A stretch of DNA of 64,000 nucleotides, taken from Xiphias gladius (lineage: Eukaryota > Chordata > Actinopteri > Istiophoriformes > Xiphiidae). The notes below the pieces were generated by a model. The model was given only the letters and a program-made list of their open reading frames with translations. It did no database searches and was not told the DNA's origin. Shown here one piece after another: positions 10,525 through 64,000 of this stretch. The stretch covers positions 12,884,001 to 12,948,000 of the forward strand of contig NC_053413.1 in NCBI RefSeq assembly GCF_016859285.1, read 5' to 3'. Numbering within the stretch: the first letter of the stretch is position 1; the number at the start of each line of letters is the position of its first letter. Position numbers and translations under genes: made by a program.

Positions 10525-23207
<12,683 letters not shown>

Positions 23208-31136: not shown

Positions 31137-34100
31137 TTACTGTTGAAGCCCTTCTCCTGTTTGCACACACACAGGCTCAGACTCTGGTCCACTATTGGCC
31201 GAGTTGCTGGCCGACACAGAGAAACAGTAGGTGGAGTTGGGGCTCAGATCAGTGAGAATTATACTTTCCCCATACACTGTTAGTTCCTGAGGTTTACTGG
31301 ATCTGTCCTGCTTCCTGATCCCCAGGCTGTAATGGGAAGCAGCATCCACTTGAGACCACTCAACAAAGAAAACTGTTGACATTGCTTGTGTGACGTCTAG
31401 AATGGGAGCTGAGAGACCTCCTGTTGGGGAAAAACAAGCCAAAGGTGTTAGGTCCCGGCTGATTTATGGCTTGTTTTTCCTGTAAATGAGGAATGAGTTG
31501 AAGTTGCATGAAAGTCTAGTAATACATTTAGAAAGCATCCCTCCCATTTAGCTTTAAAATAGTAGCCAATCAAAGGCATTGATAATTTGGAGTAAAAAAA
31601 AAAATCTTGCTGGCCTAACGCCATCAGCCCCCCAAAAATCGGTGCAACATTTAGAAAAAAATACTTAATTACTTCTAAAAAAACAGCCACATGTTGGTCT
31701 TACAAATACAAACTCACCATGCTGCATTTCACGGAGATCTCTCCTCCTGCGTCCTTGTTGAACCACTAAAAAGAGAAAAGGCTTACATTACTTAGTTTGT
31801 TTTAAAAAATACAGTACAATGCGTCTTTTGACACACGCATCAGCTCCTACCATTCGTGACACTTTTAGCTTCACTCTCTCCAGCTGCGTTGCTGGCTGTG
31901 ATCACCAGGTTACCGGACGTGATGTTGGCCAGAGAGCAGGACAGCCCCATCATGCTGCATAGCTGAGCCTTTGGCGTAACACTGTTGTCATAAACAGTGT
32001 ACGCGGTGGCAAACGCTGAAGCGTTCCACGAAACTGTGGCAAAGGAGCTGTTACCACTGTACACCGCTCCTGATGGTGGACAAGGCGCTGGGAGAAGAGA
32101 AATCACAGTTAGTTGAAACACCTGAAAACTTGGTTATAAAAGTTATGCTTCTCCCTATAACCATAAATACTGCCATGGCTATATGAGCAACAACGGCCTT
32201 TTTCACCGCAGACATTCTGACTTGTCATAGCAGGAACAGGACATTAACCATACTTCTGTTTTATTCCAGTGTCCCTGTGAACCATGACAGTGAATCTAAT
32301 CCATGAGTGTTCCTAATTTCTGCTACTTCATATATCTACTTCACTACATTTCGATGGAAAGTATTGCACATTTTACTCCACTACATTTATTTGACAGCTA
32401 TAGTTACGTAAGTTAAACTGCAGCACAAGTTTATAATGGTTTATGGATTAAACCATTATTATTAACATTAGTTACACCTGTGTATGACAAGTGAAAATGT
32501 CAGCCATGAGAAAGTCAGGTAACTGTGGCTCTGTGGAAACCCTCACTCACTTTTTTATTAAGAAATCCTTTGTTTTAATACAGACTCTTACCCACACTCC
32601 ACTCTAATTGTTGAAATGTAAAAGGTAAAAAACACGTTTAAACAGTAGATCAAGCGTTAAGTGTAGTCTACCTGTCGTTCCACTGAGAGGCACGGATGGG
32701 TCGCTGGTACCAGCACCGTTCCTGCTCCGCACTGTAGCAGAGTAGGAAGAACTGCAGGGGAGAGGAATCTCAAAGTACGTCCTGTTTGTCCAATAGGAAG
32801 ACAGGTCGAACAGGGCCTGGCTGTCTCCCAGCAGACTTCCTGTTAATGCCACCATGTACTCAGTGTCTCTGCAGGAGATCTGTGTCCACCTGAAGCGCAT
32901 CACCTGGATCTCCATCTGCATTGGCAGCAGCTGCACCTCGACAGCACCTGGGGGACAGGGAGCTAAGGGAGAGAGAGCGGGATTTAATGATAAACTCCAT
33001 CCGAGCGCAAACATTACACTTATTGAGTCTTTGTGAAGTGACGTGCAGCTTTTATACCTGCTCCCCTCTGCACTGGGTCACTGAAGGAGCTGTTGCAGGT
33101 GCCATCCGAGGCCTGGACAGAGAAATTGTAAAGTGTTCCACAAACAAGACCCTCTATGGTACAGTTGGGATTTGTGCTGTGACAGTACAGCATGTCTCCA
33201 TTCCCAGACTGGGCACAGCCATAGTAGTCTACAGCGTTATCTTTGGGAGCCCATGACAGCAATGCAGACCGATTGTTACAGTGGAACGTAACTGAGAGTC
33301 CATCTGGCTGGCAAGGACCTGGATAGAAAAATATGAAATTCTTACTTTGCTGAAACTGGTATTATTTAATCATAATAGGTTTCTTGAATGTATGTTATTA
33401 TTCTTTGAGTCTTTTGTATATATAAAGACAAATACCTGTAGTCAGTGTCGCATTTCGACTGGCCTTGCTGGAGCAGTTCTCATGGCTAGCATATACAAAT
33501 ACTGTATACTGCTGGTCACAGTGGAGCGCTGATACACTGCAGTTACTGGAGGTGCTGTTGCAAGTGTGCACGTGTCCATCCACGCCCACAGCAACAACAT
33601 GGTAGGTTTCAGCAACAGGAGAGGGAGTCCAGGACACCAGTGCACTGTGGTCCTCACAGGAGCTGCTAACCATCACCTTCCTTGGTGGACAGGGCTCTTG
33701 GAAGAGGAAATAAATCCGTATTAGTTGGCTTGAAATAGGGTTTTCTCATGAAACCACAATAATTTTTAATTATTAATATAAACTGGGGGATTTAGTAAGA
33801 TAAGGTAACAAGAAAAAAGAAAGTTATACTATACAAATTTTTGTTTTACTTTGGCCTTTTTTCTGAATATATCTTTTTTAAAATGAAATGTGTGATGGTT
33901 TTGCCTCCTCTACACTCACTCTCTCCCTACCCTAACGATTATTCATTTGAAACAATGTGTTCATTTTTGAGCTGCTCACAGCTCAAACATGCAAGTAGCT
34001 GCTGCTTGTATGATGAAAACTTGAACATGTAATATGTATTTGTGGAATTGTCTTTTGATCATTGTGGTAATGTTTTATTTAATGCCTGACAGAAAAAAAA

Positions 34101-37100
34101 ACAATGTACCCATGCTAACTCTGTAGGGCGGACTTCTCATGCTGCTGCATTGGTCTGATGAAGCCGCTACAATGATGGTATAGTAGAGGTCACATCGCGC
34201 TCCATGCAGGTAGCAGCTGGTTCCCGTGTTATTGCAAGATAGGTAGGTGTGATCGCTAGCCTCTGCTGTGGCAGTGTATACAGTGTTTCCCTCGCTGCCC
34301 TCCATCAGTTCCCACACGACGAGGATGGAGGAATTATGGCACTGAGGGGAGGCGGTGATACCAGAGAGGGAGCAAGGCGCTGGGGGAGGAGGCAGATTTC
34401 ATTAACTGTAACAATGTAGCATGAATTAATATTTAGAATGACAAAAAATGGCACATTTCTCTCACTAAGACTGAAATTTGTTACCTGTCTGCAAGTCGAT
34501 GGTGGCGCTCGGCTGACTCTCACACTGGCTGTTTTTAGCAGTAACACTGAAATTGTAGAGTACACCACAGGCCAGGTCTTCCACCTCACATGTGATGTTA
34601 TTAGAAGTGGTACAGTTGGCTGTATAGTCCTCTCCACCTACAGCTGACACCGTGTAGCTGTCTGCAACTGGAGCAGCGTCCCATGATATCCACGCAGAAT
34701 TGGTCACACAGTCGAGGGTGCCCCTGACTCCCTGAGGCCGGCAGGGCGCTAAAGAGCAGATAGAAAAGTTAAATCGGTGAGTGGATGGATGCATTTATGC
34801 CAGGATGGATGGCTTTTAAGGTTTTCATACCTGACAGGGTGCTGTGGGTCTGACTGTGCTGGCTGCGGCAGTTCCCTCTGACTGAGGTGACCCGAACGGC
34901 GAATGTTTTTCCACAGGTCACGTTGCTGATGGAACATGCTGTGTTCGTGGTGTTACAGGATTCACTGAGTCCTCCATTTTCTGCATTTACTGAAACCAGA
35001 AATTGGTCAGCTTCTCTGATGGCATCCCAAGAAATATCCATGTCGTCTGAGGAACAGCTGTACTGGACACTCACGTTATGGGGCGGGCAGGGGGCTGGGA
35101 ATAAGAAGATAAACTGATCAGTCAGCTACGAATTTTAAGTTGAAAATGTTTGGTACGCACAGCGCAAAAGCATAAAACTGTAACTGTGTATTAGAGTGTT
35201 TGCTGGTGTTGCATTTCTCACCTGAATTTAATATCAGAGCCTGGCTGGGGATACTAGAGCAGTTGTCATCCATAGCCGCTACCTGCACGGCGTAGCGACT
35301 GCCACACATGAGGTTGTCAAGGCTACAGCTAAGGTCAGAGGTCTGGCAGCTGATGTTGCTATGACTAGAGCGGGCTGTCACTAGGTACTGCACAGCCCCA
35401 CGACTGGCAGACCAGGACACGGTAGCAGTGTTGTTGGCACAGTCCATCACCACTGAGACATTAGTGGGAACACACGGCACTGCAGATAAAGGGTAGACAC
35501 CGTGAGAAGAGCACGTAAAAACCTGCAGTTGATTTCAGTTCAGCAATAATTAATGTATCCATGTGTATATGAGTGATACAATTTAGGCCATCCTTCAGCG
35601 TAGTAAAGGAATAGTTCACAAAAGAAAGACTACCAAACTTCAAACCTTGCCATCTGTCTTAGCTATTAAAGGCAATGTCAGTTTAGCTCTTACAAAACTA
35701 ATGCTGACATATATTGAAAAGATATAATACATTACATTACATTTATGGTAGTTATACTTATTTAGTTTAACACATACCATTGTCATTATTTTTTCCAAAT
35801 ATAATGACCATAAATCACAATCAGATATATACTGACTATAATAAATGTATGGAAAACATATGGTAATGATTTATACCCTCAAACTGTTTGGCTACAAAAC
35901 ACCTTGATAATGCCACGTAACCTGGTTGGAGACATTTTGTTTGATTTGAATAGATATTTCAATGCCTTTTGTGGCTCTGAAAAGTTGTCAAATGTTAAGG
36001 GGTTTAACTGGATTTCTATTCAGTGTGCTCCAACAAATTTTAACAGACAAAATTCATTTGAAAAATATGAATAGGAATGGAAAACAAGAGAAAAGAAAAT
36101 ATATCAATTAGCTCTTGATTACCATGAGTTTGAATAGTAACAAATGTGACATTTAGAAACTGCCCACGTTTTAGTCAAGTTATGATACGAGTACTTGAAA
36201 CTAAATGTATTAATAATAAATTAATTATATAATTAATTCATTCATTCATTCATAATAAAAAAACTGCATGTGTGCCATTTAATACTCACCGGACTGCAGA
36301 CTGATGGTTTGACTGGAGATGGTGCTACACTGTTGGTTGGAAGCTGTGACTGACACAGAGAAGTTGTACCCACAGGTCAGGCCTGGGAAGCTGGTTTTTG
36401 TAGAGTCGGACATGGACATTTCTGAGATGCCAGTGTCAGTCTGCATGGTGACTGTGTAGTAGTCTGACCCATTACTGGCTTGCCATGTGACCATGACGAT
36501 GCCAGAGAGACAGTCCTGCATGGTAGAGGCTCCTGTAGGTGGACACGGCCCTGGAGAAAAGACATGCAAGTTAATTTTAGACCTGTTTCATCAGCTTCAA
36601 GTAAACTAAACTCACATCCAACGCTTTGACACGCATATATAAAGGGCGTTTAACCTACATGTCTGTACGGAAGCCGGCGCACTGGAACTGCCAGGACAGT
36701 GCTGGCTGTAAGGTGCCACCGTGAGGCTGTAGTTTTGTCCACAGGTAAAGTCGGAGAAGTGGGCTGCGGTGACATTAGTGGTGAGACCAGTTGTTTTGTC
36801 TCCTGCCGCAGCTGATACCAGGTACATCTCTGACCTGTTACTTGCGTCCCAGCTCAGAGAAACAACTTTCATATTGCAGTCCACAGAGGCAACCAGATTC
36901 TGGGCCACGCAGGGATCTGGAGGAAAGAAAGATAATGGATATGTTATTACAGAGATATTCAACCATATCTAGTTTTTAGTACACCAGCTGATTTCAAGGA
37001 TTCTGTACATTTATTATTTATTTGGTAATATTTAAATTCATGGGTCTGTAAATTCACAATAATTTCATAGGAAACTTTATTGTACATATATGTTGAATTA

Positions 37101-37903
37101 TGTTTGCTTATAGACAAATGTAGACAATTAAACACAGTCTCTATTTTCCCTATACTTAGTACCAAATTGCAAAGTGCTTTCTAGGAGATGTCTTAGAAAT
37201 TATCAGAAAAATGACAAACACATTAAATAAATCATTGACATTTATGTAAACAGCACTTTTCTGAACAAACATTGCATAACATACCCATATGGATGACTGA
37301 GCTGTTGCTGGGCAGACTGGTGCAGCTGTCATCCTTTGCTCTCACTTCAACAGTGTAGTCCTCCCCACAGTGCAGGTCATTCCAGGTGCAGGCGGTGGTG
37401 TTGGTGAGACACTGGTGGGTGTGTCCATCAAGGCCAGTCGCGACGACAACATATGTTTCGGCACCATCGCTGGGACCCCAGACGACAGAGCCCATGTTAT
37501 TTTCACACTGCACATAGGTCGTCACATCTCGGGGGATACATGGGGCTGCGGAGAGAGGAGGGGTGTAAACAGACACACGTGCAGTGACAAACAACACTCA
37601 ATTTAATGTAAGTGTGTGTTGAGGTGTAAAATGCAAAAACCGTACAAGTTTTGAAGAAGGCAGGGCTGCTGGGGATACTGTCACACTCGCTGCCTCGTCC
37701 TTGCACAGTGACATTATAGTCCTGTCCACACGGCAGAGTGGCCAACAGAAGGGTCTGGGTTGTGTTGTAGATCTCCACGTAACCGAGGCTCCCTGTGGCT
37801 GTAACTAAGTAATTCACAACACCGCTTGCTCGATGCCAAGAGATCTGGACCTCCCCACTCTGACAGAGCGCCTGAGCAGACAGAATCACAGGCTGGCAAG
37901 GCT
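31137..37903 (-). other. fndc7: fndc7 block 4: FN3 domains 31-42, linker and last FN3 domain
   Basis: Exons: d31 37903-37646, d32 37545-37285, d33 36916-36659, d34 36550-36290, d35 35479-35222, d36 35094-34831, d37 34748-34485, d38 34379-34110, d39 33696-33436, d40 33318-33058, d41 32962-32672 (97 codons, longest), d42 32087-31851 (79 codons, shortest), linker 31765-31718, last exon 31420-31137. Domains 41-43 diverge: d41 has extra residues and few cysteines, d42 has GNLVITASNAAGESEA, and the last domain has TYCFSVSASNSANSGPES, typical of ordinary FN3. Confidence 0.86.
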
Positions 37904-40900
37904 CTGAGAGGAACAGGAGGAAGTGAAAGGAGAGAAAAACAGACGGAGAAGTACTAAGACCCTTGAGTGAAAGCAGGAAACTACATGAAATGAAACAAAT
38001 AGTTTAGTGACTTAGTTCAGTGACTTGGTTTAATGTTAGTTTAAACTGATCGATTAGTAGATCAACAAAACGTTAATCAGTTAACTATTTAGATAATCAA
38101 TTCATTGTAAGTGAGCGATTTTCCAAACAAAGTTCTAGCTTCTCAAATGTGAGGATTTCATTCCTTTCCTTGTTTTACATTACAGTACACTAGATATTTT
38201 GGGGGATTTGGACTGTTGGTCAATCAAAATGACAACAAAAGTTGTTTGAAGACATCATTTGTGTTTTTGTTTTGTTTTGTTTTTTGGTGCTTTATGGACC
38301 AAACGATTATCTTTCATTCGACAATAATCACCAGATTAATCAATAATAAAAATAATAATAAGTTTAAGTAAGTAAATAAGTTTTAGCCTTGAATACTATT
38401 ATGTAAAATTACTTTACTACAAGTAAAATTCATTCAAAAAATGAAAAATATAATATTATCAACAATATGAACTGAAGATATCAAAAGTAAATCTCAAATA
38501 TACCAAGTAACTATAGCTGTCAAAATAAATGTGGATTAGAATTTACAACATTTGCCTCTGAACTGAAGTAAAATAGAAGCATAAAATGGAAAAACGTAGC
38601 TTAAGAAGTATCTCAAAACTGTACTTAAGTACAGTACTTGAGTAAGTGCTTGTGTGAAGTGTTTACACCACTGAATAAGGCATAGACCAGACATTACCTG
38701 TTTTGATGGACACAGTACTACTGCGCAGGCTGCAGCAGCCTTGGCTGTGAGCTGTGACAGTAAAGTTGTACGTCTCTCCACAGGCCAGACTGGGGAACTG
38801 ACAGGTAGAGCCTGTGGAGTTACAGTGCTTCACCTCCCCTCCTGATGCCTTGATGGCAGTTGCTATGTACAGGTCAACATCAGACCTGTCCTCCCAGGAC
38901 AGGACTGCAATGTGGGAGCCACACTGCAGGTCAACGGCTACACGCCGAGGAGGACAAGGACCTGAAGAGAGTTGTGGAAGGATAAGGGTCAAATCCTGAA
39001 CAGTTACAATCAGAACTAACGATTGCTACTAATGAGGACTAACTGTAAACCATCAACCCACGTGTGGTGAGGTTGGCGTGCACCGGTGCTATGAGGCTGC
39101 ACTGTTTGTTGCTGGTGGTGAGGCTGAGGTTGTAGGTTTCCCCGCAAGTTAAACTTGTCACATTACATCTGTTCTGCTGAGTTGTACACAAAGCCTGAAG
39201 ACTTCCACTGACAATGGCTAGCAGGGAAAAGTTTGCTGTGCCGTAAGTGGTATTCCAGGACACAACGGCGTCACCATCAGAGTTACAGTTGACTTCTACC
39301 TCTACGTCTCTGGGCAGGCATGGAGCTGAGGACACAGCACGAGTAAGCGTATGAATATACACAAAATACATCCAAAATGGATGGAAAATTACATCCAGTA
39401 TGTACTGATTATGTGATTACCTGATGTAAGAGACACCACTGTGCTGTCGGAGCTGTTGTATGGCTGTCCCAGCGCCTTGACCCAGACGCTGTAAACTGTG
39501 CCACACGTCAGTCCTGAGACACTACATTGGGTGTCTGTGGCAACACAGGAAGTGGAGTGGCCATTTTGGTTGTCAAAGTAGGCAACATAACCCAGAGCGA
39601 GGTCACTCTGCTCCCAGGAAACCGTTGAGGTAAGCTGTTCACACTCCATATTGGCCTGGACGTTGGTGGGCGGACAGGGTTCTGAATGAAGGGATAGCAC
39701 GCATATTAAAGCGCGAAGGAAAGGCATACAGAGCCATACCTGTAGATACTGAAAGGTTCCAGCCATTTCATATTTCTCCCCAATCAGGTGACACACCTGT
39801 CTTGAGGCGGTAGCGTTCAGAGGTCACAGTGTTGTTGCAGGCCAGGTTTCGTGCCATCACAATGAAATTGTAGATCTGACTACACTGCAGGCCACTCAAG
39901 AAGCAGCTGTTGTTGGTAGTGTTGCAGGTGACCGTCAAACCCTGGTCAGTCACGGCCTCAACGGTGTATGAGCTGGCACCACTTGCCGCACCCCACGTCA
40001 CCTGGGCAGTGCTTATGTTGTAGTGGATGGAGAGATTCGTGGGAACACAGGGCTCTGGAGAGAGAAAGAGTTAATGCTGAGGTAGTTACATTCAGTCTGA
40101 TGAAAATTAAATGTGAAGAATGATAAAAGTGATCTGGAAACCAGTATACTCTTGGCTGTCTACTGGTTGTAAAACGGTTGGTCTCCCACGAACACAACAG
40201 CTGACATGCTACAAACACGCACGCAGGTGAACATGTTGTACCTGTGGTGAGGTATCCTGCCATTTGAGCGGTTCTGTTGCAGGTCTCTCCCACAGCTGTC
40301 ACAATGACACTGTATTCCTCTCCACACTGCAGAGAGCTCAGCTGACAGTTGGTGTGGTTGGTGGTGCAGCTGGTTGTGTTGCCTGATGAAGCTGTAAGCT
40401 CAGTCACATAGAACACAGCTCCAACGCTGGGCTGCCAGGATGTGGTAGCAGAGTGAGCCTCACAGTCCATTATGGCTTCGATGCTGCTCGGCAGGCAAGG
40501 CCCTGTGGAATTAGCAAGAATATGACTTAACATTTATAGCAAAATCATATCTAACAATTTAAGGTGAAGCGAATCCACTTACTAATCATTCAGAGCTTTC
40601 AACTGCTTTCCTTACCAACGCTACGGCATATACATTAGCACAGAGGTTGATCAGAATAATGCCCTCAGTAGAATTAACACAAAATGAATGTTAGAAAATT
40701 AAACTTGCTGCAGCTGCCAAAACATCCTTCAAAGATGCTGCTGGTTGCTGGATTGCTGTACTGGTGTCTGCACATATTAGCAGATGTGTATAATAGGTGT
40801 AAATCTATATACAGTATGTACTAAGTATGTCTTTACCTGTGGTAAGCGACACCGCTGTGCTATCAGAGCTGTTGTACTGCCATCCCAGCGCCTTGACCCA

Positions 40901-43900: not shown

Positions 43901-46900
43901 CTCACCTGTTCTCAGAACCACGGCTGAACTCGACTCACTCCAGCAGCCCCTGTCCACAGTAACTGCAGTGACAGAGTAGGTTTGCCCACAATGGAGGTCG
44001 GTGAAATTGCATGAATTGGAATAGTTTGAGCTGCAAGTTTGGGTGTGTCCATCATCTGCAGTTGCTGTCGCTATGTACATCTCTGCCCCTGTTACTGGAG
44101 ACCATGAGACAGCGCTGTCCTCACAAGACGGCGACACAGTGACATTACTGGGAGCACAAAGACCTGGAGAAAAGGGTAGAAAAAAAGGATTTCATGTTGT
44201 AATTTTTTTCTGAACAGAAATGTAACAATTTGAGTGGATATTTAGTCTTTCTGCACCTGCTCTAAAGCCATAAACTGCACTTGGGTTTCCTGTGCATGTC
44301 TTAGAGTACGATGTGACTGTGATGCCATAGGTTTCACCGCAGTGGATGTCAGGTACTTGGCAGCTGGTGGCGTTGGTGTGGCAGTGGTGTGTGTGTCCAT
44401 CCTGGCCTGTCACTGTCGCATTGTATCCTACAACACTGGGGCTTCCTACCCACTTCACCAGAGCTGAGTGATTGAAACACACCAGATTGGCGCTCACATC
44501 CTGCGGGGCACACGGGACTGAGGTGGGAAAATGGAAAAAAAAAAAAAAAAAGATGGGTGACAACACAAGAAGCATCAACTGACATTTTGTGAGGTACAGC
44601 AGGAGTTCAACATTTTGAGAATAGCTATTTTTTTTTTTCTTGCCAAGAGTTAAATGAGAAAATTCCTACTATTGTGTTTGTGCTAAATATGAAGTTGGAG
44701 CCAGCAGCCAGTTAGCTTGTCTTAGCATAAAGAGAAGAAGCAAGGGGAAACAGCTCTCCAGGTAACAAAAGCTCGAAAGCTCAGAAATTAACATAACAAT
44801 TAAAAAACATCATATCTGGTTTCTTTAACACTAACAAAACTTTAAGTGTACAAAACCTCAAGTTGTGGTTTTTCGGGGGTTATGTGCTGGACTATTTAGC
44901 AGGGAGCAACCAGTTACACTTCAATTTTTGAACGGATTAAACAAAAGACACACGACGTGCTAACTGTCAAGTTTCGTAGTTGCCGGTAGGTGGTTTTGTT
45001 TCCAGTCTTTATACTAAAGTAAGCGGCTGCTGGCAGTAGCTGCATTTTTACTGGCAGTGAGTCGTGTCAGTCTAACTCTTCATACAAAACAATTGTATAT
45101 TCCAAAATATCAATCACCCACATTAAAACCATCTTTTTTCCTGCACCTCTGTAACAGTCAGTTGGATCGGTTTTTTACGGGTTTGAGCTTCTTTATTAGC
45201 AGTATATCGGTGGAAGATTTACCTGTTTCGAGGGATTCACTGACACTTGGGATGCTGTTGCACAGCGCCCCTTGAGCCTGGACTGTTATATTAAATTCCA
45301 AGCCACAGGGAAGATTTTGGAACAAACAACTGGTATCGGTAGTCTTGCAGCTATCCTGATACCCTTCTCCTGCTAACTGAGCCAGGAAGCCGAGGCTTCC
45401 CACAGGGTCAGTCCAGCTGAACACTGCTGTATTGGTGCCACAGGTGTACTGCTTAGATATGACAGCTGGAGAACATGGGGCTGAAAAGAAAACAGGAGAT
45501 ACAACATAAAGATGAGTGTTTACCTGGTGGAAGAGGCAAGAGGTGATTCCTTTTTCAATGTTCTCTCACATCCATGCAAACACTCACCTGTAGTAATGTT
45601 GGTACTGGATCCAGGTGCACTGTCACACTGGCTTCCTCGTGCAATGATTGTGGCTGTGTAGGTTTCACTGCACAGGAGATCTGTTAGGCTACACGTAGCA
45701 GTAGCTGAGCTGCACGAAACCTTGTGCCCACTTGTAGCTGTCGCGTTAACTATGTAACCCATCGCATCAGCCATTGGCTCCCAAGACAGAGACGAAGAAT
45801 TGGTACCACAGATCTGGATGCTGTTCTGGATAGAGGGAGAGCAAGGAGCTGAGAGGGAAATAGAAAGGGAGAAGGATCAGTAGTGTTTAAGGTAAATGTT
45901 TTAGTTCTTTCTCTTTGTACTTTTAAGTTAAGCTGAAGTCTGTCCAGCTTTCTTATCTTCTACCTGTCATAATGACTGCTCTGGCGCTTCCAGTGCTGTT
46001 ACAATTGGCATCCTCAGCCACTACAGTCAGGTTGTAAACTTTTCCGCACTGAAGCTGGTTCAGCTGACAGGAAGCTGTATTGCTCCTACAGGAAGTATAA
46101 TTGTCAGAGCTGCCCTCTCGAGCAACTACAGTGTAGGCCACGGCCCCGGCGGCTGCAACCCAGGACACGGTGGCCGTGTCTGAGCCACAGTGGAGACTGC
46201 TAGTCACATTAACGGGGTCACATGGTCCTGGCGGAAGAGGTAGAGAGGAGTTATACGTGTTGAGATATGTTCCAAGTCAAGAAAATCCTCTTGAGATACA
46301 TAAAATGTACAAAAATATGTCAACACAACCTGTTGTTATAAAAGTTTGACTAGGAGCGCTGGTGCAGTGGCTGTCCAAGGATGTTACTGCGATGTTGTAC
46401 TGACTGGCACACTGCAGGCCGGAGAAAGAGCATGTGAGGCTTGATGAGGAGCAGGTGTCAGAGAAGCCGCTGGGGCCCGTAACTGTTGCTGTGTAGGTGG
46501 TGGCACCAAGAGAGGCTTTCCAGGAGGCCAGAAGATAGTTTGTGCCACAGTGTGCCACTGCTGTTAAGCTCTGAGGGGCGCACGGTGCTGGAGGAAGGTT
46601 TCACAGTGAATGAATTAAATCAGAGTAGCAAAATATATTTAATGGATGTTATTATCCTCTCATCAACATCTTTATTACCTGTCTGAACAGTTTTTGGGGA
46701 GCTGTATGGTCCGCTGCAGCTGCCAGAGGAAGCTTTGACAGAGACATTATACAACTGTCCACACTGAAGACCACTCAGACTACAGATGGTACTGTTACTG
46801 TGACAGGTCACTGAACTGATGTTTCCAGCCAGTGGCACAGCAGTCACACTGTAGTTGAGGGGGTCAGGAGAAGCGATCCAGCCGACCATTAGCTCATTGG

Positions 46901-49900
46901 TGCCACATAACAGGTTTGTACTGATGTTCTGTGGAGCGCATGGTACTAACAGAGACATAAAATAATAAGTTTAAGTCAGAAAAAAACAGGCAAGTTTGTT
47001 TCCCTTTCATCTAAAGTGGGTGTAAACAAAATCCATGCATTTTCAATTAATTAAATCTTGTAGTGCTTCATGAAAAATAAACAGATGTCTCCTATTGAAA
47101 ACTGAAATTTCTTAAAGAAAAAGTTTGACATTTTGGGAAATACTTGTTTGCTTTCTTGCAAAGAGAATGTGTAATCCATACAATACCAAAGCATGAAAAG
47201 ATAAATGTGGTTTTATTGTTTCATTGGGAAGTTATATGAGGGAATATTTCTCAGCCAGGCACAGTGATTACCTGGAAATATAACTTCTTAATCAGTGAGG
47301 TTTAGAGGTGCTGGTGGGCGGATTTTTTATTCATTTCTTTTGTGGACAGAGCCTGGCCAGTTGTTTCCCGCTGCTTCCAGTCTCTATTCTAAGCTAAGAT
47401 AGCCATTTCCTGGCTAAAGTCTGCTAGCTTCATATTTACCATACAGACATTATAGCGACAGCCTTGATCGTCTCATCTAATCTATTGGATTTTCTCAGCA
47501 GGAAATCCAATAAGCATATTCCCCAAAATGTTGAACTGTTCCTTCACTGTTTTCTGTCATAGCTACTTAGAGTGTATATTTACTTATCATTCTGTATAGA
47601 CAGAATGATAAGTAACAAAAGCTTCTTGCATAACCACAAGATTCATCAATTTATGTTATGTTATGAGCTCTAACCACTGGCAGCTGTTGATCATCATTAT
47701 CTACTGTCTTTTGGCTAAAGGCATTAAGATTAGCTTTTTCAAATTAGGTCACGTGTCTTTTGCAACAGCTGATCATGAAAACAAGTACACTAAATTTACA
47801 AAAGAAAACTACCTGCTACCCAAAGTGCTCACACTAGCAGAGAGTAAAAAATTTAGCCAGTGTTACTTGTGATCAGCTCATATAAGGGATATTTTAAATA
47901 AACTTTTATCATTTATTTGAAGTTGTTTGGATGAAAATTTTGATGGGCTCTACCACATCTGATAAAGAATCAGTCACAGAAGTTGTGTGGTAGGTCTGAT
48001 CAAACGTGGCTTGACCTCTCTCTCAGTACCTTGGTCTTGTCTGAAGGGAGCACTGTAGTTGCTGACACAGGTGCCATCAGTGGCACTCACGTGAATCTCG
48101 TACGCCTGGCCACACACCAGGTTACTCAGTGTGCAGTTGGGGCTGGAGCTGTTGCAGGTGAGGATCTGTCCATTGCTGGTGGCTTTCACATCATAGCTCA
48201 TTGCATTGGCACTGGGGGCCCAGGACACTTGAGCAATGCCAGCGCTACAGATCAGCTGGCTGGACACATTAGACGGAGTACATGGCTCTGGAGAGGGAAT
48301 CAAATAAACACCAATCACTGTGAATTAGGTCTTTGTGAATGACGCTGTAATGACTATTTAAAACCTCCTAATTAAGCGACCCATTAATGACATAGATGGT
48401 GGTGGTCAGTGTTGTTACCTGTGTCCAGAGAGACGGTGTTGCTCAGGTGACCTGTACAGTTGTCATCAGCTCCTGAAACACCAATGATGTAAACCTCCCC
48501 ACACTGGAGCCCAGGGAGGCTGCAAGAAGTTTTGTTGGTTGAGCACTCTGACCTATGACCTTCACTGCTAATAGCGACAGCTGTATAGTATTTGGCACTG
48601 TCGCTGGCCACCCATGACACAGGTACGGGATCTGGGGAACATGTATGCACGGCTGCAACGTTGGTGGGAGGACATGGCACTGAAGGGAAATAAATGGGAA
48701 GGAGAAGTTTGAGGATGTGTTCAAGAAAGTCCCCCAGCTGCATCTATGTCCTTAGGAATGATAAATCTGCATTTCTCACATGTTTGCACTGTGACCTCTG
48801 TACTCGGAAGACTGAAGCACGTCCCAGTGACAGAGAAGACGATCACCCCGTAGGAGCTTCCACACAACAAACCTTCCATGGAGCACTGCGTCTCTGTAGA
48901 GTTACAGTACAGAGACTGACCCATTCCTCTGGAGATGACGGTGGTGTAGTTCTCTGCAGGAACAGAGATGTTCCAGGTGACCGTCAGCTCTCCAGTAACG
49001 CAGGCCACACTCGCCTTCACGTCCTCCGGGCCACATGGCACTGAAAGAAGAGGGGACAAAAATGAGCAGACATACGACATTCAAATTTTTGGTCATCGTT
49101 CTTCCAGGGAGAAACAGTTTATCCCTCTGAGTTTGCTACCTGAGTCCATGTTGATCGGTGTCGAGGTGGAGGGACAGTTTCCATCATTGTAGGTGACAGT
49201 TACACTGTATGTCTTTCCGCAGGGCAGAGAGGTGATTTTACAGTTGTTGACTGTGTTGCTGGTGCAGGTCAGTTGAGTTCCACTTTGATCCTCTATAGTT
49301 GCTGTGTAGAGGCCTTTGGTTTGATGGTTTTGCCACACTATCAGAGCATGGTTGGCATCACAATCTCTGAATGCCTCAATGTTGGTTGGAGGACACGGTG
49401 CTGGAGGAAAGGCAGAGGATATGGTTGGAGAGTGTGGACACATCAAATCTGACTTTGCCAAATTATCATATTTTGAAGGAAGTGAATGTTTGTAATGACT
49501 AGGGAGAGGAATGATCAGAGTTTTCAGTTGTTGCAAAGGTGCATTGTATTTTTCCCGATGACACAAACATGTGATCCAAGCTTCTGACCTACCTGTCATA
49601 AAGGTGACCTCCTCACTGGCAGTGCTGTTGCACTTGAGATTAGTGCCAATAACGCTGGCGGTGTAATTCTGTCCACATCTCAGTCCTTCGATCAAGCAGT
49701 TGGTGCCCATTGAATTGCATCTGTGTGTATTTCCATTGGCATCCTGAGCAACAGCAATGTAAAATATGGCACCAATTCTTGTCGTCCAGTTAACTCTTGC
49801 AGAGTCTTGGCTGCAGTCGGCTGATGCTGAGACATTGAATGGGGTGCAGGGAACTGGAGAGAGGGGGAAATTATGTGTCTAAGACCAATCTCTCATTAAA

Positions 49901-52900
49901 CAAGTCAGAGTAATAGAGCATCACTGATGAATGTTTCACATCTTAGGAACTATAAATAATATCATACAGTTGTCCTACAGAGCTCCCAGTACGTACCAGT
50001 CTGAGCCACTTCTCCCAGCACCTTGTTAGTGGAGCAGTTGTCATTGGAGGCGACGATCCACACACTGAGATGTTCGCCACATGGCACGCCAGTCACCGCA
50101 CAGCTGTTGGAGGATGTGGTGCAGTTGTAGGTTTCTCCAGTGTTTCCCTGTGCTTCTACAGTGTAGGAAAGAGCTCCAGCAGCAGAGTCCCAGGTCGTGA
50201 TCAGCATGTCAGAGTGACACTCGGCTGCCATCTTTACATTTGTTGGTAGACAAGGAGCTGCAGTGAAAAAATAGAGAAGAATCAGGCAGTGTGTGGCATG
50301 CTCCTATCTCTTATTTTTTCTTCCCACAAGTAGATATTGGATAGATGCCACATTTATTAAATAGAAATTTAAATAAAAACTGTTTTTCTTGAAACTACTT
50401 CAACTGCTCAGAGCTCATAATTATAGCAACTAACAACCATGTGTTGTTACATGCATGGTTACAAAACAGAAATTAGTAATTAGTCTAATAAATGGCCTCA
50501 TTATCACAATTTATTATATTTAATATACCACAGTGATCAAGTGATGTATGTTTTATCATTTCATGATCTTCATCATGAAGTCAAGTAAGTCAGAGATAAC
50601 ACACTTTATAAGTTTACAATACTATAATCTATTAAACAAAACCTGTATTGTAATTATTTTAAGTTATATTTCGACAATCAGGTCTGTTCCATGTTTAACA
50701 GTATTGAACTAACAAATGCAAGTTAAAGGATAAGGGTAGTGTTAGTGTCTATTTTTCTTATTGTCAACAAAAATGAAGACCAGAAGTGGCTCTTACATTT
50801 AACATTTCATTTCAAGAAAAGGCTCCGTAATTTAATGAGACACCTGGGCACTGTTTTTAGCAAGCTTTACTCAAAAAGGAGTAAATGATGATTTAGTTAA
50901 GGACTACTTTCAACAGCCAGTTAATACACACTTGTGCTCTGGTAAGGTACAGTATATGTGTGACTCATAATAAACTACAGTGCCCATGTTCATTATAATG
51001 AAGGAAAATGTCACCTAGTGTTGCTCATTGATGTTTTTTGATTGATTTTGATTTTTGATTGATATATCAGGCTTTGACTGACTACACAGACAATACTTGT
51101 TAATAAAATCAATTCATTGTTAGTTTTTATCTTTTCATGGGATTTGTTGACAATAAGAAAAATATACAGTACAATATCACCAACATTATGTTGTTACAAT
51201 TTCAGAAAAATCACACTAAATAGTGTGATTTAGCCCTTTATGTGATCAAAACAAATGAAGTCCTACTCACAGGTTCGGACAAAATCAGGCTGGCTGACTT
51301 CACTGTTGCAGTCAGAGCTGACGGCGTACACAGTGTACTTGTAGAACTGACCGCAGCCCGTGTTAGTGAAGTAACACGTGTTGTCCACCGTCCTGCACTC
51401 AGTCACTTTGCCAGTGTTGTCCACCGCTGTGGCCACATAGTAGAAGGTGTTGTTGGTGGGCTGCCAGCTAAAGACGATCACATTGCTGGCGCAATCGTGA
51501 AGGGTCTGAGGACGGGCTGGAGCACAGGGGACTGGAGATAACAGAAAGGAGACAGAGAATTAGACAGTGTTGCACAATAAGTGAGAAATTAAATGCAAAT
51601 GGGTGGCGTGGAAATCCTCCAAACTCTGGCTGAATGAGGAGAATAGAGAGATAAGGTTTTGCACTGGGAGAGGAGTGGAGCTTATATTAATGACTGAACT
51701 TTCTAAAACACTATATTAATTCAGGAGGTAGATGTTTACAGCAGATTTAACAATCTGTTTTTTTGAAAGGCCACAAATATCATCTAAGGAACCAGACTCC
51801 TTTTGTAATTTATCCCTTTTCAGCACTTCATTGGCATAAACAGGCATGTGTGCTAGGTGTGTGTGTCTGAGTGCGCTAGACACTAGATCTTTTCCCTTGG
51901 CGGACTGTATATGTGTGTGTCTCCTTCACCTTTTCACTTTCCAGACTAATACTATAGCTGACCTTTGGGATAACTCCCTGATTTCAAGTGACTGTAAAGA
52001 GCTTTACATTGACTGGTGTTGGATGGCAGGTCTTGGCGGCTATTGTGAGGGTGTGTTTCACCGCTCAGCATGAGAAAAGAGCATAGGACACCATGGGAGG
52101 AACCTAAACAGCTTCCCATAGGAGACACTTATGGGGAAGGTTAGTGATAAAGAGCTTATAGTATGTCCAGAAGTGTGAGTGTGTGTGATATTGAGTGATA
52201 CAATGAGAAGGTGTGTGCATGCATGTGGGAAACATATACAGACAGATGATGAGGCACAGACAATATAAGCCTTGAAAAAGGACCGACAGACAAATACAAG
52301 CCACTTTTGTAGTTTCCACGTCAGCAGGTGCTCCGCTCACCTGTCTCGAACAAAGTGGAGGTGGTGGAGGTGCTCTCGCAGTCGTCAGAGATGGCTGTGA
52401 CATGGACCCGGTACTTCTCACCACATTTGAGCATGGTGATCTCACAGCTTGTGGAGGCTGATGTACAGTTAAGGGACACGCCAGTGCCATCGACAGCAGT
52501 GGCCCTGTACAAGTTGGCCCCAAACACCAAATCCCAGGTCACTGTCACCATGCCGCTGGAGCAGCTGTAGTCCACAGAGATTGTCGTCACCGGGTTTATG
52601 GCTGAATAAAAAGTGTTCAGATAATGTAAACAGATGTTCAAAATATTTATTATATCAGCTTAACCCTAATGTTCTATGTGGGCTCCTGGAGTCCCCGGGC
52701 CCTCTTTAACAGCTCAAAAAGATGCATAACATTGTTTTACCAGCTTGATACTTCATGACTTTAACTAATTTTATGAGCTTGGGTTGATGACATGTTACGG
52801 AAGTCCACTACAGCTGGGTAAATACAATGGATTTTCATATTGTCTGTGTTTGTGATTGGTGTTGACAGTACTTTTTATGAGCAGTACCCACTTAGAGCAG

Positions 52901-55487
52901 GTTGTTCAAAAGAGGTCTAACAGTAGTTTGACCTCTCTGGAATCTGACCCCAAACGTTGTTACAAGGTAAGATAATGTACTGTAAATCTCTTTGTCCGTG
53001 AGTGACTTTTTGGCAAACAAAAGTAATATACAGTGTATTTGTTCATACATCATTATTTGGTGTAATAACAATACTTTATGGTAATTTCTGTATTTTGTCA
53101 CCTTCATCAAACGTTACCTCAGCAATACTTGATATTACTTGATTTTGTATTTATCAATACAATTTTTAAACATACAACAATGGGGGTCCGAGAGGACCAA
53201 CGATACAACAAAACACCAGGGTTAAAGTGAGAGTCTATCAATCAATTCTGTTGCTAAAATACTCACTGGAAGTAGTGTGTGTAACATTAGAGGCTTCCCC
53301 AGGCACCAAGAAGACGCTGACTGACGATACTCCCACTGTGTAGGTGGAGCAGGGCTCCAGATTACTGATATCCATGGATGTAGTTGAAGTGTTTCTGATG
53401 CCCGGGGCATTGCTGGGGTTGTCATTGTCACTCACGGTCACTTGATAAAGCAGGACTTTACTTACTGAGTTCCAAGTCACTCGGGCTGTGCTCTTTCCCG
53501 TCGGTACAAGGGCCACACCAGTTGGTGGCTGCACCACTTCCAAGAGAAAATACAGGTGTCACTCTAATGCGTTTAGAAATCACTACCTATGTTTTCATAT
53601 ATCTTGAGGTTTAAATGACTGCTCACACATAACTTGCAGCTCAGCAAGGTTCTAATTCTATATTACATAAATGACGCCCTCTGATTAAAATGAACTAAAC
53701 CAGCATCTTTTGTGCACTTACATGTCATGATTGTCCTTATATTACTCTGGGCACCATTTCCAGCTCTGTTGGAGGAGTAAACGTAACAGTTGTAAGTTGT
53801 AGAGGGAGTCAAGCCGTCCACTTGTCCACTCAGGGCTGTGAAGGACTGGTTGTATTTTCTTGCGGGAGAACTAAACAACTCCTCCACAAACAAGATGTAT
53901 CTGTCCGCCCCTATCACGCTGGACCACTCAAACTTTATAGACGTACTCGAAATAGCTTTGGAAAAGGTGATCTGAGATGTGGCGGGCACTGTGGGAATGT
54001 AAGAAAAGGAATTCAATATTACTCAACAAAGGGATTCTTCTGATTTATTTAAATTTTTATTTTTTTAAATTCTGTCTTTACCTGTCATCGTTATTTCGAT
54101 GTCTGTGCACACAACAGTATAAAATTCAAAGACCTTCAGTGTAACTTGATAGACATGTCCGGGTCTTAACCCCTGAATCACCCTATGTGTGCTGGGTGCT
54201 GACTGCATCACCACCACTGGGGCGATATTGGTAGAGTTCACAACTCTCAAGTCCAGTAGATAAACTGAAGCTCCAGTGTAGCTGCTCCAAACCACACTCA
54301 GTGTTGATGCTGAAGAGGATGTCACTGACACAATATCACATCCTGGAAAAAAACAAAAACAATGGGTGATTTGATATTTCTATACAGTAAAGAGAAGAGC
54401 AACAGATTTTCATAACACATTATAAAATACTCTGAAAATAAATATGCTGAAAGTATTAAAGCCTGCAGTGTAAGAAGACCAATGTTATCTTACTACTGAA
54501 TGATACGGACAAGCCAGAAGAATATTATCCATTTAAGTATTTTAATAAATTTTTAGATAAAACAGGTAAAAATAAGCTAATACTGAGCACTTTATGTTTG
54601 CCATTATAGGAGTGCTCTAAACTGAGGCACAAATATAACTCCGTAGACTAGCTTCAGTAACATCAAGAACTGATTGAGAGGAAAAAATCGGAGTAAAAGT
54701 GCTAAAGATGTTTCAGCACTAATAAACTAATTTAAGGGTTGCATTGATTGTTAGACAGTGATGTTGAGTATTTGAGAGGTGGTGACCCCCTTAAGGTTGA
54801 GACCTGTCCAGGAGCTATTATCATTTTCAACCAGTCATACTGTTAATTATTTAATATACCCAACTCTTCCAGTTACCAGCAGTGTTTTCGTATGATGAAC
54901 ACGTTGAAGGTGAACCACTCATAATCACTCATTTCCACACACTGGTTCATCAAGGACACTGCTCATGGATTTCACTGAAAAAACTTCCAGAATAATTAAC
55001 CACAATCAACTGATTTTACTTTACCTGCTTTATTTGCTCAGGTAATTCTTTTAATCTATCAATTTGGTTTAAATCCAAAATTTTACATTGGGGTACTTTC
55101 CCTTAGTGGATTTCAGTGAATTTTAATTTTGACTAAATTTTGTGGACAGTTTTTGTGCTAATATTTGAATTTGCTTGATGATTATTAATCCCACTTGCCT
55201 AATTAGTGATGGACAAAAAGATGTCTGTCAACTTTAGTTAGCTACAAACCACTAAACGTAATTTTCACATAAACTGTCAGTCAGAACACTCACCTGTAGC
55301 CAAAACATGTTGTATCTTTAAAAAAAAATTAAAAAGAAAGAAAACAGATAAAGTAAATTAATTAGGAACTATTACAAAATAATAACATCATGAAATGAAA
55401 ACAAAAAAGAAACTGAATAAAAATGTAAATTACCTGTATGACAGACAAAAGAATGGCGGATGAATAAAAGGTCCACATCTTATCCAT
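31137..55487 (-). CDS. fndc7: Giant fibronectin type III domain-containing protein 7 (43 FN3 domains)
   Basis: Secreted or extracellular FN3-repeat protein of unknown function. I join 46 coding exons into 11,403 nt (3,800 aa); exon coordinates are in the four block entries. Order: signal peptide exon (MDKMWTFYSSAILLSVIQ, start ATG 55487-55485), a 22-nt linker exon, 42 exons each encoding one FN3 domain (237-291 nt, most 258-264), a 48-nt linker, and a last exon with the 43rd FN3 domain ending QTGEGLQQ-stop. From the short linker exon onward every internal exon starts and ends in phase 1, so any domain exon can be gained or lost without a frameshift. Domains 4-40 mostly share PC.P....C......W, then C, C, (L/V).CG..Y and a C near the end. 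This six-cysteine pattern suggests disulphide bonding unlike classic FN3. NxT/S sites are abundant. No transmembrane segment or RGD motif was noticed. Identity as fndc7 rests on this domain type plus linkage to prpf38b, fam102b and slc25a24. As I recall, human FNDC7 is about 730 aa, so either the gene has expanded greatly or several transcripts share the array. No internal stop or terminal exon was seen that would split it. Confidence 0.85.
32335..32460. repeat. Relic of a hAT-type miniature element in an fndc7 intron
   Basis: CTACTTCACTACATTTCGATGG...TTTACTCCACTACATTTATTTGACAGCTATAGTTAC matches the internal part of a miniature element frequent in percomorph genomes. It lies in the d41-d42 intron. 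Ends are not preserved. Confidence 0.55.
38380..38674. repeat. hAT-type miniature element, right half, in the d30-d31 intron
   Basis: Contains CAAGTAACTATAGCTGTCA, TGAAGTAAAATAGAAGCATA and ACTGTACTTAAGTACAGTAC, and ends with ACACCACTG. This is the typical right end of the CAGTGGTG-ended element family. The left end is degraded or absent. Confidence 0.6.
39421..41805 (-). repeat. fndc7: Tandem duplication of three fndc7 exons (d23-d25 and d26-d28)
   Basis: Domain 24 matches 27 and domain 25 matches 28 far better than other pairs, with exon starts 1,401 and 1,416 nt apart. Intron sequence is shared too: TACAGAACCATATCTGTA (41154-41171) against TACAGAGCCATACCTGTA (39728-39745), followed in both by ATCAGGT. 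Domain 26 resembles domain 23 more weakly. The unit is therefore about 1.4 kb and three exons. Confidence 0.8.
41868..42205. repeat. Palindromic fold-back element, copy A (shortened)
   Basis: Lies in the d22-d23 intron. The left arm includes AGCTTAGCATAAACACTGGAAAC and GGTTCTGTCCAAAAG. The right arm includes the inverse, TTTGTTACCTTTGGACAGAGCC and GCTTCATATCTGGCTCACAG. The central part found in other copies is missing. Confidence 0.7.
44535..44551. repeat. Poly(A) tract
   Basis: Seventeen A residues in the d16-d17 intron, just upstream (in transcript sense) of the d17 acceptor, so it is a U-rich polypyrimidine tract in the pre-mRNA. Confidence 0.85.
44595..45062. repeat. Palindromic fold-back element, copy B
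   Basis: Lies in the d16-d17 intron. It starts GAGTTCAACATTTTGAGAATAG, carries CAGCAGCCAGTTAGCTTGTC and AGGGGAAACAGCTCTCCAGG, the central GTTGTGGTTTTTCGGGGG, and the inverse arm with GTTTCCAGTCTTTATACTAA. Arms are diverged. Confidence 0.7.
45223..52601 (-). other. fndc7: fndc7 block 2: FN3 domains 4-16
   Basis: One exon per domain, all phase 1-1: d4 52601-52341, d5 51531-51271, d6 50257-49997, d7 49853-49593, d8 49400-49140, d9 49040-48780, d10 48679-48419, d11 48287-48030, d12 46945-46679, d13 46587-46330, d14 46227-45964, d15 45848-45588, d16 45480-45223. Domains begin with forms of (A/V/E/G)PC.P and contain the L.CG.(.)Y/F motif. Domain 4 lacks the initial PC. Introns inside the block are mostly about 80-250 nt. 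The d4-d5, d5-d6 and d11-d12 introns are longer, and the last of these holds a palindromic element. Confidence 0.87.
47110..47555. repeat. Palindromic fold-back element, copy C
   Basis: Lies in the d11-d12 intron. It begins AAAGTTTGACATTTTGGGAA and ends CCCCAAAATGTTGAACTGTT, which are near inverse complements. Inner arms include GAGCCTGGCCAGTTGTTTCCC and AGTCTCTATTCTAAGCTAAG. Confidence 0.8.
52660..53225. mobile_element. piggyBac-like non-autonomous DNA transposon (558 bp, TTAA target sites)
   Basis: Inserted in the d3-d4 intron of fndc7. Flanked by TTAA at 52660-52663 and 53222-53225. The ends are CCCTAATGTTCTATGT on the left and, inverted from the right, CCCTGGTGTTTTGTTG. CCC termini next to TTAA are the hallmark of the piggyBac superfamily. 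Sub-terminal GGAGTCCCCGGGCCCTC and GGGGGTCCGAGAGGACC are also roughly inverse. No transposase frame exists inside, so it is a deletion derivative or miniature element. Confidence 0.8.
53267..55487 (-). other. fndc7: fndc7 block 1: signal peptide, linker and FN3 domains 1-3
   Basis: Exons: 55487-55434 (signal peptide, 18 codons, ends phase 0), 55315-55294 (IQHVLATG), then domain 1 54342-54082, domain 2 53988-53722, domain 3 53536-53267. These three domains lack the six-cysteine pattern of the rest and look like conventional FN3: domain 2 has IKFEWSSVIGADRY and GLTPSTTYNCYVYSSNRAG, domain 3 has ARVTWNSVSKVLLYQVTV and NLEPCSTYTVGVSSVS. They probably represent the ancestral N-terminal region, before the duplicated array. 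Confidence 0.85.
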
Positions 55488-63955: not shown

Positions 63956-64000
63956 CTGGGGGGATGGGGTGGGAGGAGAAATGTAAAAAATAGTTGAGAA

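Follow-up and report, generated by a model that had tools for sequence, protein, structure and literature searches.

The question raised by this locus is what a row of 43 fibronectin type III (FN3) domains in one place of a fish genome represents: FNDC7 itself grown long, several adjacent genes, or one giant protein of its own. The stretch analysed, hereafter the window, comprises 64,000 nt of the swordfish (Xiphias gladius) contig NC_053413.1 (C14; positions 12,884,001 to 12,948,000), and the array of FN3 exons occupies window positions 31137–55487 on the minus strand. Its initial annotation was a 43-domain FNDC7 produced by massive in-frame exon multiplication. The results presented here indicate that the array is an old tandem paralogue of a neighbouring nine-domain gene, and that its domain order has been kept at a second locus, on contig C6 of another chromosome.

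The gene model of the array has 46 exons: two leader exons, 42 exons with one FN3 domain each, an exon of 48 nt and a terminal exon with the 43rd FN3 domain and a TAA stop codon. All introns start with GT (45/45) and end with AG (45/45), and the coding sequence (CDS) of 11,403 nt corresponds to 3,800 amino acids plus the stop, with no stop codon in the reading frame ahead of the end of the last domain, D43 (the domains are numbered D01–D43). Thus, the 42 single-domain exons plus a terminal one, with intact GT-AG sites and no stop, and the CDS divisible by three, all claimed in the initial annotation, are borne out; its phase 1-1 boundaries apply to every joint downstream of leader exon 1 save the first, as the intron that separates the leader exons is in phase 0. 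Introns are short (median 118 nt, longest 1,084 nt). A hidden Markov model (HMM) search for FN3 in all six frames, over stop-free stretches of at least 25 amino acids, matched the 43 array domains and four of the neighbouring gene, one exon each. No decayed or partial FN3 copies were found in these stretches, the one extra row scoring −0.5 bits, and relic domain exons inside introns were rejected on the same search. We judged, informally, that a run of 43 domains, every one intact, spliceable and in the same phase, is plainly not a product of chance. The leader reads MDKMWTFYSSAILLSVIQ and continues across the exon joint with IQHVLAT, and by eye and hydrophobicity it is probably a signal peptide. 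From residue 26 onward the chain would have a mass of ~398 kDa and a pI of 4.8; the whole protein contains 223 cysteines and 107 N-glycosylation sequons, no RGD motif was found along its 3,800 amino acids, and the RRRR of the 48-nt exon is its sole R-x-[RK]-R.

The Pfam fn3 family (PF00041) was matched with E≤0.01 by 39 of 47 domains (43 of the array and four of the neighbour) and not by the other eight; not every match reaches the curated cut-off of 25 bits, D10 scoring 23.9. An AlphaFold2 (AF2) model of D10, the one domain modelled of the 43, exhibited the FN3 fold with eight strand segments (pLDDT 94.7), and its top Protein Data Bank (PDB) matches were FN3-type domains of myomesin, neogenin and the erythropoietin (EPO) receptor, together with FN3 designs (TMq ~0.7–0.8, E ~1e-4). 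Titin and fibronectin led a PDB profile search of the array domains. Seven Pfam families were matched by these 47 domains, and ZP was not one of them. A search for relatives of the terminal domain in bacterial and viral contigs gave 66 and 5 pattern matches, respectively, with zero confirmed.

When the whole genome (690.8 Mb) was searched with D10, matches fell on C14 and C6 only among the matches listed, with at least 79 matches in 100 scored candidates. On C6 there is a similar pair, consisting of a nine-domain gene (5977147–5984928) and a 54-domain array (5992122–6042831; domains E01–E54) with a two-exon leader (its first exon MSKMGLLGAIGFSLALVSLTQ), an exon encoding GPAGSRRRRDLRATQ and, at the end, an FN3 exon that carries the stop. 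The design common to both loci is therefore a two-exon leader, an array, an RRRRDLR exon and a terminal FN3 domain. The array on C6 is longer by 11 domains, in two spots; an intron interrupts E05, the donor of E27 is GC, and E39 has no open frame back to a usable acceptor, reflecting either damage or an assembly error. The nine domains of the neighbouring genes correspond one-to-one and in order (9/9), and window positions 18555–22906 match C6 past its array, also in order (5 of 34 blastn hits). We infer that the mirror loci arose when a block was duplicated, for which the genome duplication of teleosts is the simplest candidate. The features of the array are as follows, in window coordinates, with the C6 counterpart of each domain in brackets.

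55588–55622, minus: conserved 35-nt element with CTGATTGGTTCCCA (reverse CCAAT box), 83% identity to C6
55434–55487, minus: leader exon 1, MDKMWTFYSSAILLSVIQ, putative signal peptide (C6 counterpart MSKMGLLGAIGFSLALVSLTQ)
55294–55315, minus: leader exon 2 (counterpart on C6)
54082–54342, minus: D01 (E01) FN3
53722–53988, minus: D02 (E02) FN3, lone Cys
53267–53536, minus: D03 (E03) FN3, orphan Cys at C-terminal pole
52341–52601, minus: D04 (E04) FN3, orphan Cys at N-terminal pole
51271–51531, minus: D05 (E05) FN3
49997–50257, minus: D06 (E06) FN3
49593–49853, minus: D07 (E07) FN3
49140–49400, minus: D08 (E08) FN3
48780–49040, minus: D09 (E09) FN3
48419–48679, minus: D10 (E10) FN3, used as reference and heading the alignment that was folded
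48030–48287, minus: D11 (E11, weak) FN3
46679–46945, minus: D12 (E12) FN3
46330–46587, minus: D13 (E13, weak) FN3
45964–46227, minus: D14 (E14) FN3
45588–45848, minus: D15 (E15) FN3
45223–45480, minus: D16 (E16, weak) FN3
44257–44517, minus: D17 (E17) FN3
43906–44163, minus: D18 (E18) FN3
43541–43810, minus: D19 (E19) FN3
43190–43447, minus: D20 (E20) FN3
42622–42882, minus: D21 (E21) FN3
42238–42498, minus: D22 (E22) FN3
41539–41805, minus: D23 FN3 (reciprocal best hit E23, aligned with E24 in dynamic programming), start of variable spot 1
41201–41455, minus: D24 FN3, duplicate of D27, orphan Cys at C-terminal pole
40837–41097, minus: D25 FN3, duplicate of D28, orphan Cys at N-terminal pole
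40242–40502, minus: D26 (E32) FN3
39797–40054, minus: D27 (E33) FN3, orphan Cys at C-terminal pole
39421–39681, minus: D28 (E34) FN3, orphan Cys at N-terminal pole
39062–39325, minus: D29 (E35) FN3
38698–38961, minus: D30 (E36) FN3, extra Cys
37646–37903, minus: D31 (E37) FN3
37285–37545, minus: D32 (E38) FN3, best conserved pair, 63%
36659–36916, minus: D33 (E39, damaged on C6) FN3
36290–36550, minus: D34 (E40) FN3
35222–35479, minus: D35 (E41) FN3, followed by variable spot 2
34831–35094, minus: D36 (E47, weak) FN3
34485–34748, minus: D37 (E48) FN3
34110–34379, minus: D38 (E49) FN3
33436–33696, minus: D39 (E50) FN3
33058–33318, minus: D40 (E51) FN3, lone extra Cys kept on C6
32672–32962, minus: D41 (E52) FN3, orphan Cys at C-terminal pole
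31851–32087, minus: D42 (E53) FN3, orphan Cys at N-terminal pole
31718–31765, minus: 48-nt exon VVQQGRRRRDLREMQH with furin-type RRRR (C6 counterpart GPAGSRRRRDLRATQ)
31137–31420, minus: terminal exon, D43 (E54) FN3 and TAA

Reciprocal best matches between the domains of the two arrays gave 31 pairs, all of them collinear (31/31), compared to a mean of 8.6 and a maximum of 14 pairs in order in 10,000 shuffles. Dynamic programming aligned D01–D22 with E01–E22, D26–D35 with E32–E41 and D36–D43 with E47–E54; as this procedure forces collinearity, only the reciprocal best hits constitute evidence of order, and 30 of the pairs in these three blocks are such hits out of 40, five of them being weak matches or including E39, the damaged domain. 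Changes in domain number are limited to two spots, one between D22 and D26 (three domains vs nine on C6) and the other between D35 and D36 (none vs five). With the 31 pairs in order and the number changes confined to these spots, most of the array predates the duplication of the locus, so that some 30 to 40 of its domains are older than that event. Moreover, the pairwise identity of the array domains is low (median 28%, mean 27%, highest 85%), which also indicates that most of them are old. Only one recent event was found, the duplication of D24–D25 and D27–D28 (41474–40792 vs 40073–39376, 78.5% identity over 699 nt). The earlier argument that such diverged sequences speak against an all-recent origin is consequently upheld.

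The ratio of nonsynonymous to synonymous substitution rates (dN/dS) of the recent duplicates was 0.20 for D25/D28 and 0.33 for D24/D27, with dS values of 0.42 and 0.52 for the two pairs. Between the arrays, the 36 of 43 aligned pairs with an alignment score of at least 1.0 (seven were dropped, six as weak and one as damaged) gave a proportion of synonymous differences (pS) of 0.69 and of nonsynonymous differences (pN) of 0.36, with a dN/dS of ~0.26 at a dS near saturation; pN was lower than pS in 36/36 of them. One of the pairs kept, D23-E24, departs from the reciprocal best hit D23-E23. As far as sequence comparison goes, the great length of the array is thus shown to be old, and its domains to be under purifying selection. 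A recent exon amplification or an assembly artefact that swelled the domain number could draw on the real local duplication and on the 11 additional domains of C6. The median identity of 28% and the 31 collinear pairs oppose a recent amplification, which was rejected on these grounds, and, in addition, the window contains zero Ns and even the duplicated block has dS values of 0.42 and 0.52; together, we regard this explanation as very improbable. The initial proposal of selection rather than recent growth is supported by both the order kept on C6 and the three dN/dS values, and its exon multiplication was indeed massive and in-frame, with the amendment that it is old and that number changed later only in two spots. 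If the array is one chain, the order kept in two copies would make the length of the array and the order of its domains selected traits.

The nine-domain gene lies just upstream of the array on the same strand, at 61043–64000 and on to window coordinate 68639 (C14:12952639), with four of its FN3 exons inside the window (61871–63955); DNA past the window edge (C14:12944001–13004000) was used to complete it. It consists of nine FN3 exons, a 30-nt exon and a stop exon (61043–61074) whose product ends in VISRGRRSLF, and ~5.6 kb separate this stop exon from the leader of the array. The array fits the layout of the FNDC7 family, a leader followed by FN3 domains in tandem, each in its own phase-1 exon; the nine-domain neighbour likewise has one domain per phase-1 exon. 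With 43 or 54 domains, and 3,800 amino acids on C14, it is nevertheless far larger than an ordinary FNDC7, which has some nine FN3 domains and 700–800 amino acids. For comparison, buffalo FNDC7 has 811 amino acids and 13 exons (PMC8615036). Since a gene of ordinary FNDC7 size adjoins it, the array is a tandem paralogue of this gene and not FNDC7 itself enlarged; the nine-domain neighbour is, from its size and place, the better candidate orthologue of mammalian FNDC7. Of the initial name, then, the FNDC7 family and the giant in-frame array are retained, and the identity with FNDC7 itself is not, the same pair of genes being found on C6. The array also differs from its neighbour in having an FN3 domain after the RRRR exon, whereas the neighbour stops soon after RGRR. 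The best neighbour match of D43, the domain behind the furin-type site, is domain 3 (29% identity), and that of D01 is domain 1, which hints at the origin of the paralogue. It might be supposed that both form one still larger gene, given their equal strand and exon phase and the ~5.6-kb gap. The neighbour has its own stop exon, on which a fusion was rejected, and the array has its own leader and a conserved upstream element, both also present on C6, making such a gene highly unlikely.

Cysteines occupy six canonical positions in the array domains (2, 13, 45, 52, 59 and 74 in D10 numbering), and all six are present in 28 of the 43 domains on C14 and 41 of the 54 on C6. C45 and C52 were absent together in 9/9 cases per array and never singly; on C14, five of these nine domains are cysteine-poor, and D19, D31, D33 and D34 lack just that pair. 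The pattern sets the array apart from its nine-domain neighbour, as it includes C13, which neighbour domains 6–9 all lack (three of these four begin with PCCP). According to FN3 topology and the strands modelled for D10, residues 2 and 74 lie at the N-terminal pole of the domain, the C-terminal pole being that of 13 and 59, and we infer three disulfide staples in most domains. An odd number of cysteines at the C-terminal pole was found in D03, D24, D27 and D41, and in each case the next domain (D04, D25, D28 and D42) is odd at its N-terminal pole (4/4, p 4.5e-5). C6 has the corresponding junctions E03-E04, E33-E34 and E52-E53 (3/3, p 4.3e-5, E39 left out), and none of the other offsets from −6 to 6 gave more than one such pairing. 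The simplest reading suggested by this pattern is that orphan cysteines bond across the joint between adjacent domains, and such a bond would place neighbouring domains in one chain.

Several points weigh against this reading of the cysteines. The poles were assigned from FN3 topology and the strands of one model, after the pattern had been seen, so that the p values are to be taken as guides, and the C14 and C6 junctions are orthologous and hence not independent. If C65 of D02 is counted at the C-terminal pole, the score becomes 4/5 (p 2.2e-4), and when the duplicated pair is counted only once, the p values are 4e-4 to 1.6e-3. D30 constitutes a fifth odd N-terminal pole, with no partner. Finally, in a hand count of the nine-domain neighbour (domains designated U), U3-U4 breaks parity, one of the three junctions from U1 to U4; with this exception, the nine-domain gene may use cross-joint bonds as well. 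In any case, the complementary orphan cysteines offer a concrete and testable example in which adjacent domains would give up a staple of their own and bond to each other instead. Lone cysteines with no obvious partner are kept at both loci near the chain ends, at position 65 in D02/E02 and position 34 in D40/E51.

The conserved element lies ~100 nt ahead of the ATG of the array on C14 and 88 nt ahead of the array on C6 (5991504–5991538), with 83% identity over 35 nt. Within it, an identical 14-mer at both loci is the sole match, allowing up to two mismatches, in the window and in 110 kb of C6; as 0.64 such matches are expected by chance, its weight lies in the matched position. Among 200 random control windows, two held the element itself and three of the other 198 reached at least 37 bits (37.4 for the element), these three sharing one 75-bit stretch elsewhere that is probably a dispersed repeat. 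The single leader, the single conserved upstream element and the complementary orphan cysteines favour one transcript, and we consider it likely that the array encodes one chain.

Several points speak for the alternative, in which the array is a set of neighbouring genes, or of alternative transcripts, with separate starts and poly(A) sites. In zebrafish, fndc7rs4 presumably has siblings rs1–3. The name fndc7rs4 itself (used in PMC6363392) implies sibling genes, so that others may see several genes in the array; the array and the zebrafish fndc7rs genes have the family name in common, and the latter may or may not be an equivalent array or pieces of one. In a scan of introns for leaders, with the real leaders as controls and shuffles for both loci, candidates slightly exceeded the shuffled mean on C14 (2 vs 0.76) and on C6 (6 vs 3.05). 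Moreover, the introns, the longest of 1,084 nt, could accommodate compact promoters, and those longer than 290 nt contain 26 copies of A[AT]TAAA, a number close to the mean of 21.8 in shuffles. Against separate genes, no candidate leaders were found in corresponding introns of the two loci, matched by hand via the domain alignment, there is one conserved upstream element per locus, and the frame on C14 is open to the end of D43. Masked introns of C14 and C6 shared 14 matches, none in same-numbered introns, and these resemble dispersed repeats; one of them (41861, D22/D23 vs E30/E31) lies inside variable spot 1 at both loci. The orphan cysteines span D03-D04, D24-D25, D27-D28 and D41-D42, and speak for those joints only. 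On balance, several genes or transcripts appear improbable. As a separate observation, the non-coding stretches 41861–42165, 44591–44755, 47340–47540 and 61422–61655 match several scattered places on C6 and probably belong to a dispersed repeat family.

The array as a single chain leads to the following model. An FNDC7-like gene was probably copied, and its cysteine-bearing FN3 exon multiplied to give the array, whose product would be a single secreted chain with 43 FN3 domains (54 on C6, one damaged). Staples would join C2 to C74 at the N-terminal pole, C13 to C59 at the C-terminal pole and C45 to C52 across a hairpin, and at four junctions (three kinds, one of them duplicated) a bond between orphan cysteines would lock the joint. 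At D24-D25 and D41-D42 this bond is predicted to link C59 to C2, and at D03-D04 to link the orphan of D03 to C74 of D04. The product would be a stiff rod of ~140–150 nm (43 domains at the FN3 spacing of ~3.3 nm) that resists unfolding and is coated by up to 107 N-glycans; from the cysteine pattern, a stapled rod is likely. Furin would cut at RRRR, freeing or exposing the last domain, which could time extracellular assembly. Epithelial cells of the support type might then deposit the rod in a gel on their apical side, for instance the cupula of the lateral line, the otolithic membrane or skin mucus, where its length would be selected because mesh size or reach depends on it. That the protein is secreted, disulfide-bonded, stiff, cleaved by furin, glycosylated and part of a matrix is predicted here, and for the complete scheme, a tandem paralogue encoding one stapled, glycosylated, furin-trimmed rod in an apical matrix, we see about an even chance.

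The proposed site draws on expression data. Both fndc7a and fndc7rs4 are expressed in zebrafish neuromast support cells (PMC6363392), Fndc7a is a neuromast marker (PMC11328412), and Fndc7 is the eighth most enriched gene in supporting cells of the mouse cochlea at P1 (PMC5137903), all of which points to the cupula or a similar gel. The composition of the cupula is described as poorly understood, and its length is affected by a mucin with repeated cysteine-rich domains that support cells produce (PMC11765562). A suggestive single-nucleotide polymorphism common to FNDC7 and STXBP3 in a human noise-hearing study (P 4.7e-4; PMC4488244) was too weak to be used. By analogy with these genes, the apical matrix of sensory organs is a possible site of the array protein, a tentative placing somewhat short of even. 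Other reports count against it: fndc7 is one of seven extracellular-matrix genes with a selective sweep and differential expression, in gill and skin, of tongue sole (PMC9592550), it is upregulated in the ventral caudal fin of swordtail (PMC4338968), and it appears in a gene list of pupfish jaw development (PMC5450241), so that a role in sensory organs may be too narrow. The papers on fndc7a, fndc7rs4 and Fndc7 may, in addition, concern the nine-domain gene and not the array. One giant protein working in the skin or gill barrier, in mucus or in another extracellular matrix would agree with the tongue sole and swordtail data, and 107 sequons and a pI of 4.8 suit mucus. As the most specific published signals, with the reservation just made as to which gene they concern, come from neuromast and cochlear support cells, we find this site rather unlikely. 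If the array is expressed as fndc7a or fndc7rs4 are, its product would be a strong candidate for the protein that forms the skeleton of the cupula, about which little is known. That it is a main and hitherto undescribed structural protein of the cupula or otolithic gel, a disulfide-locked FN3 rod of 40–50 domains, with the lone cysteines of D02/E02 and D40/E51 polymerising rods after the furin step and domain number tuning gel mechanics, is a long shot.

Long tandem FN3 arrays are also found in titin, fibronectin, tenascin-X and usherin. Their FN3 domains are not known to have regular disulfide staples, titin is intracellular, and none of the four is known to be built from one phase-1 exon per six-cysteine domain. 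Usherin and tenascin-X have ~35 FN3 domains each; if one chain, the array would be among the longest extracellular FN3 arrays. Extracellular polymers of ZP type that are processed by furin have a ZP domain and a furin-type site ahead of a C-terminal propeptide; the array has the RRRR site, at both loci, as a putative cleavage site, and ZP was not among the Pfam families that its domains matched. Another likeness is to a mucin, with the difference that the mucin repeats are CysD domains and those of the array FN3, two unrelated folds. Fish neuromast Mucin-5AC is likewise secreted, with repeated cysteine-rich domains in variable number (2–27), and is a support-cell product tied to a gel (PMC11765562). 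The FNDC7 family is known, and its giant form is apparently undescribed in the literature found on fndc7, teleost FN3 exon duplication, FN3 and the cupula, and interdomain FN3 disulfides; predicted gene models for the array may well exist in sequence databases.

The remainder of the window contains plus-strand stretches at 18555–22906, which we take to be FAM102B-like, and at 28838–29536, an RS-rich reading frame presumably PRPF38B-like; the open reading frames tried in these two stretches gave no Pfam matches. On the minus strand, EF-hand and mitochondrial-carrier exons were identified with Pfam at 10877–14364, and these we assume to be SLC25A24-like. FAM102B, PRPF38B and SLC25A24 are conserved neighbours of FNDC7 at its locus.

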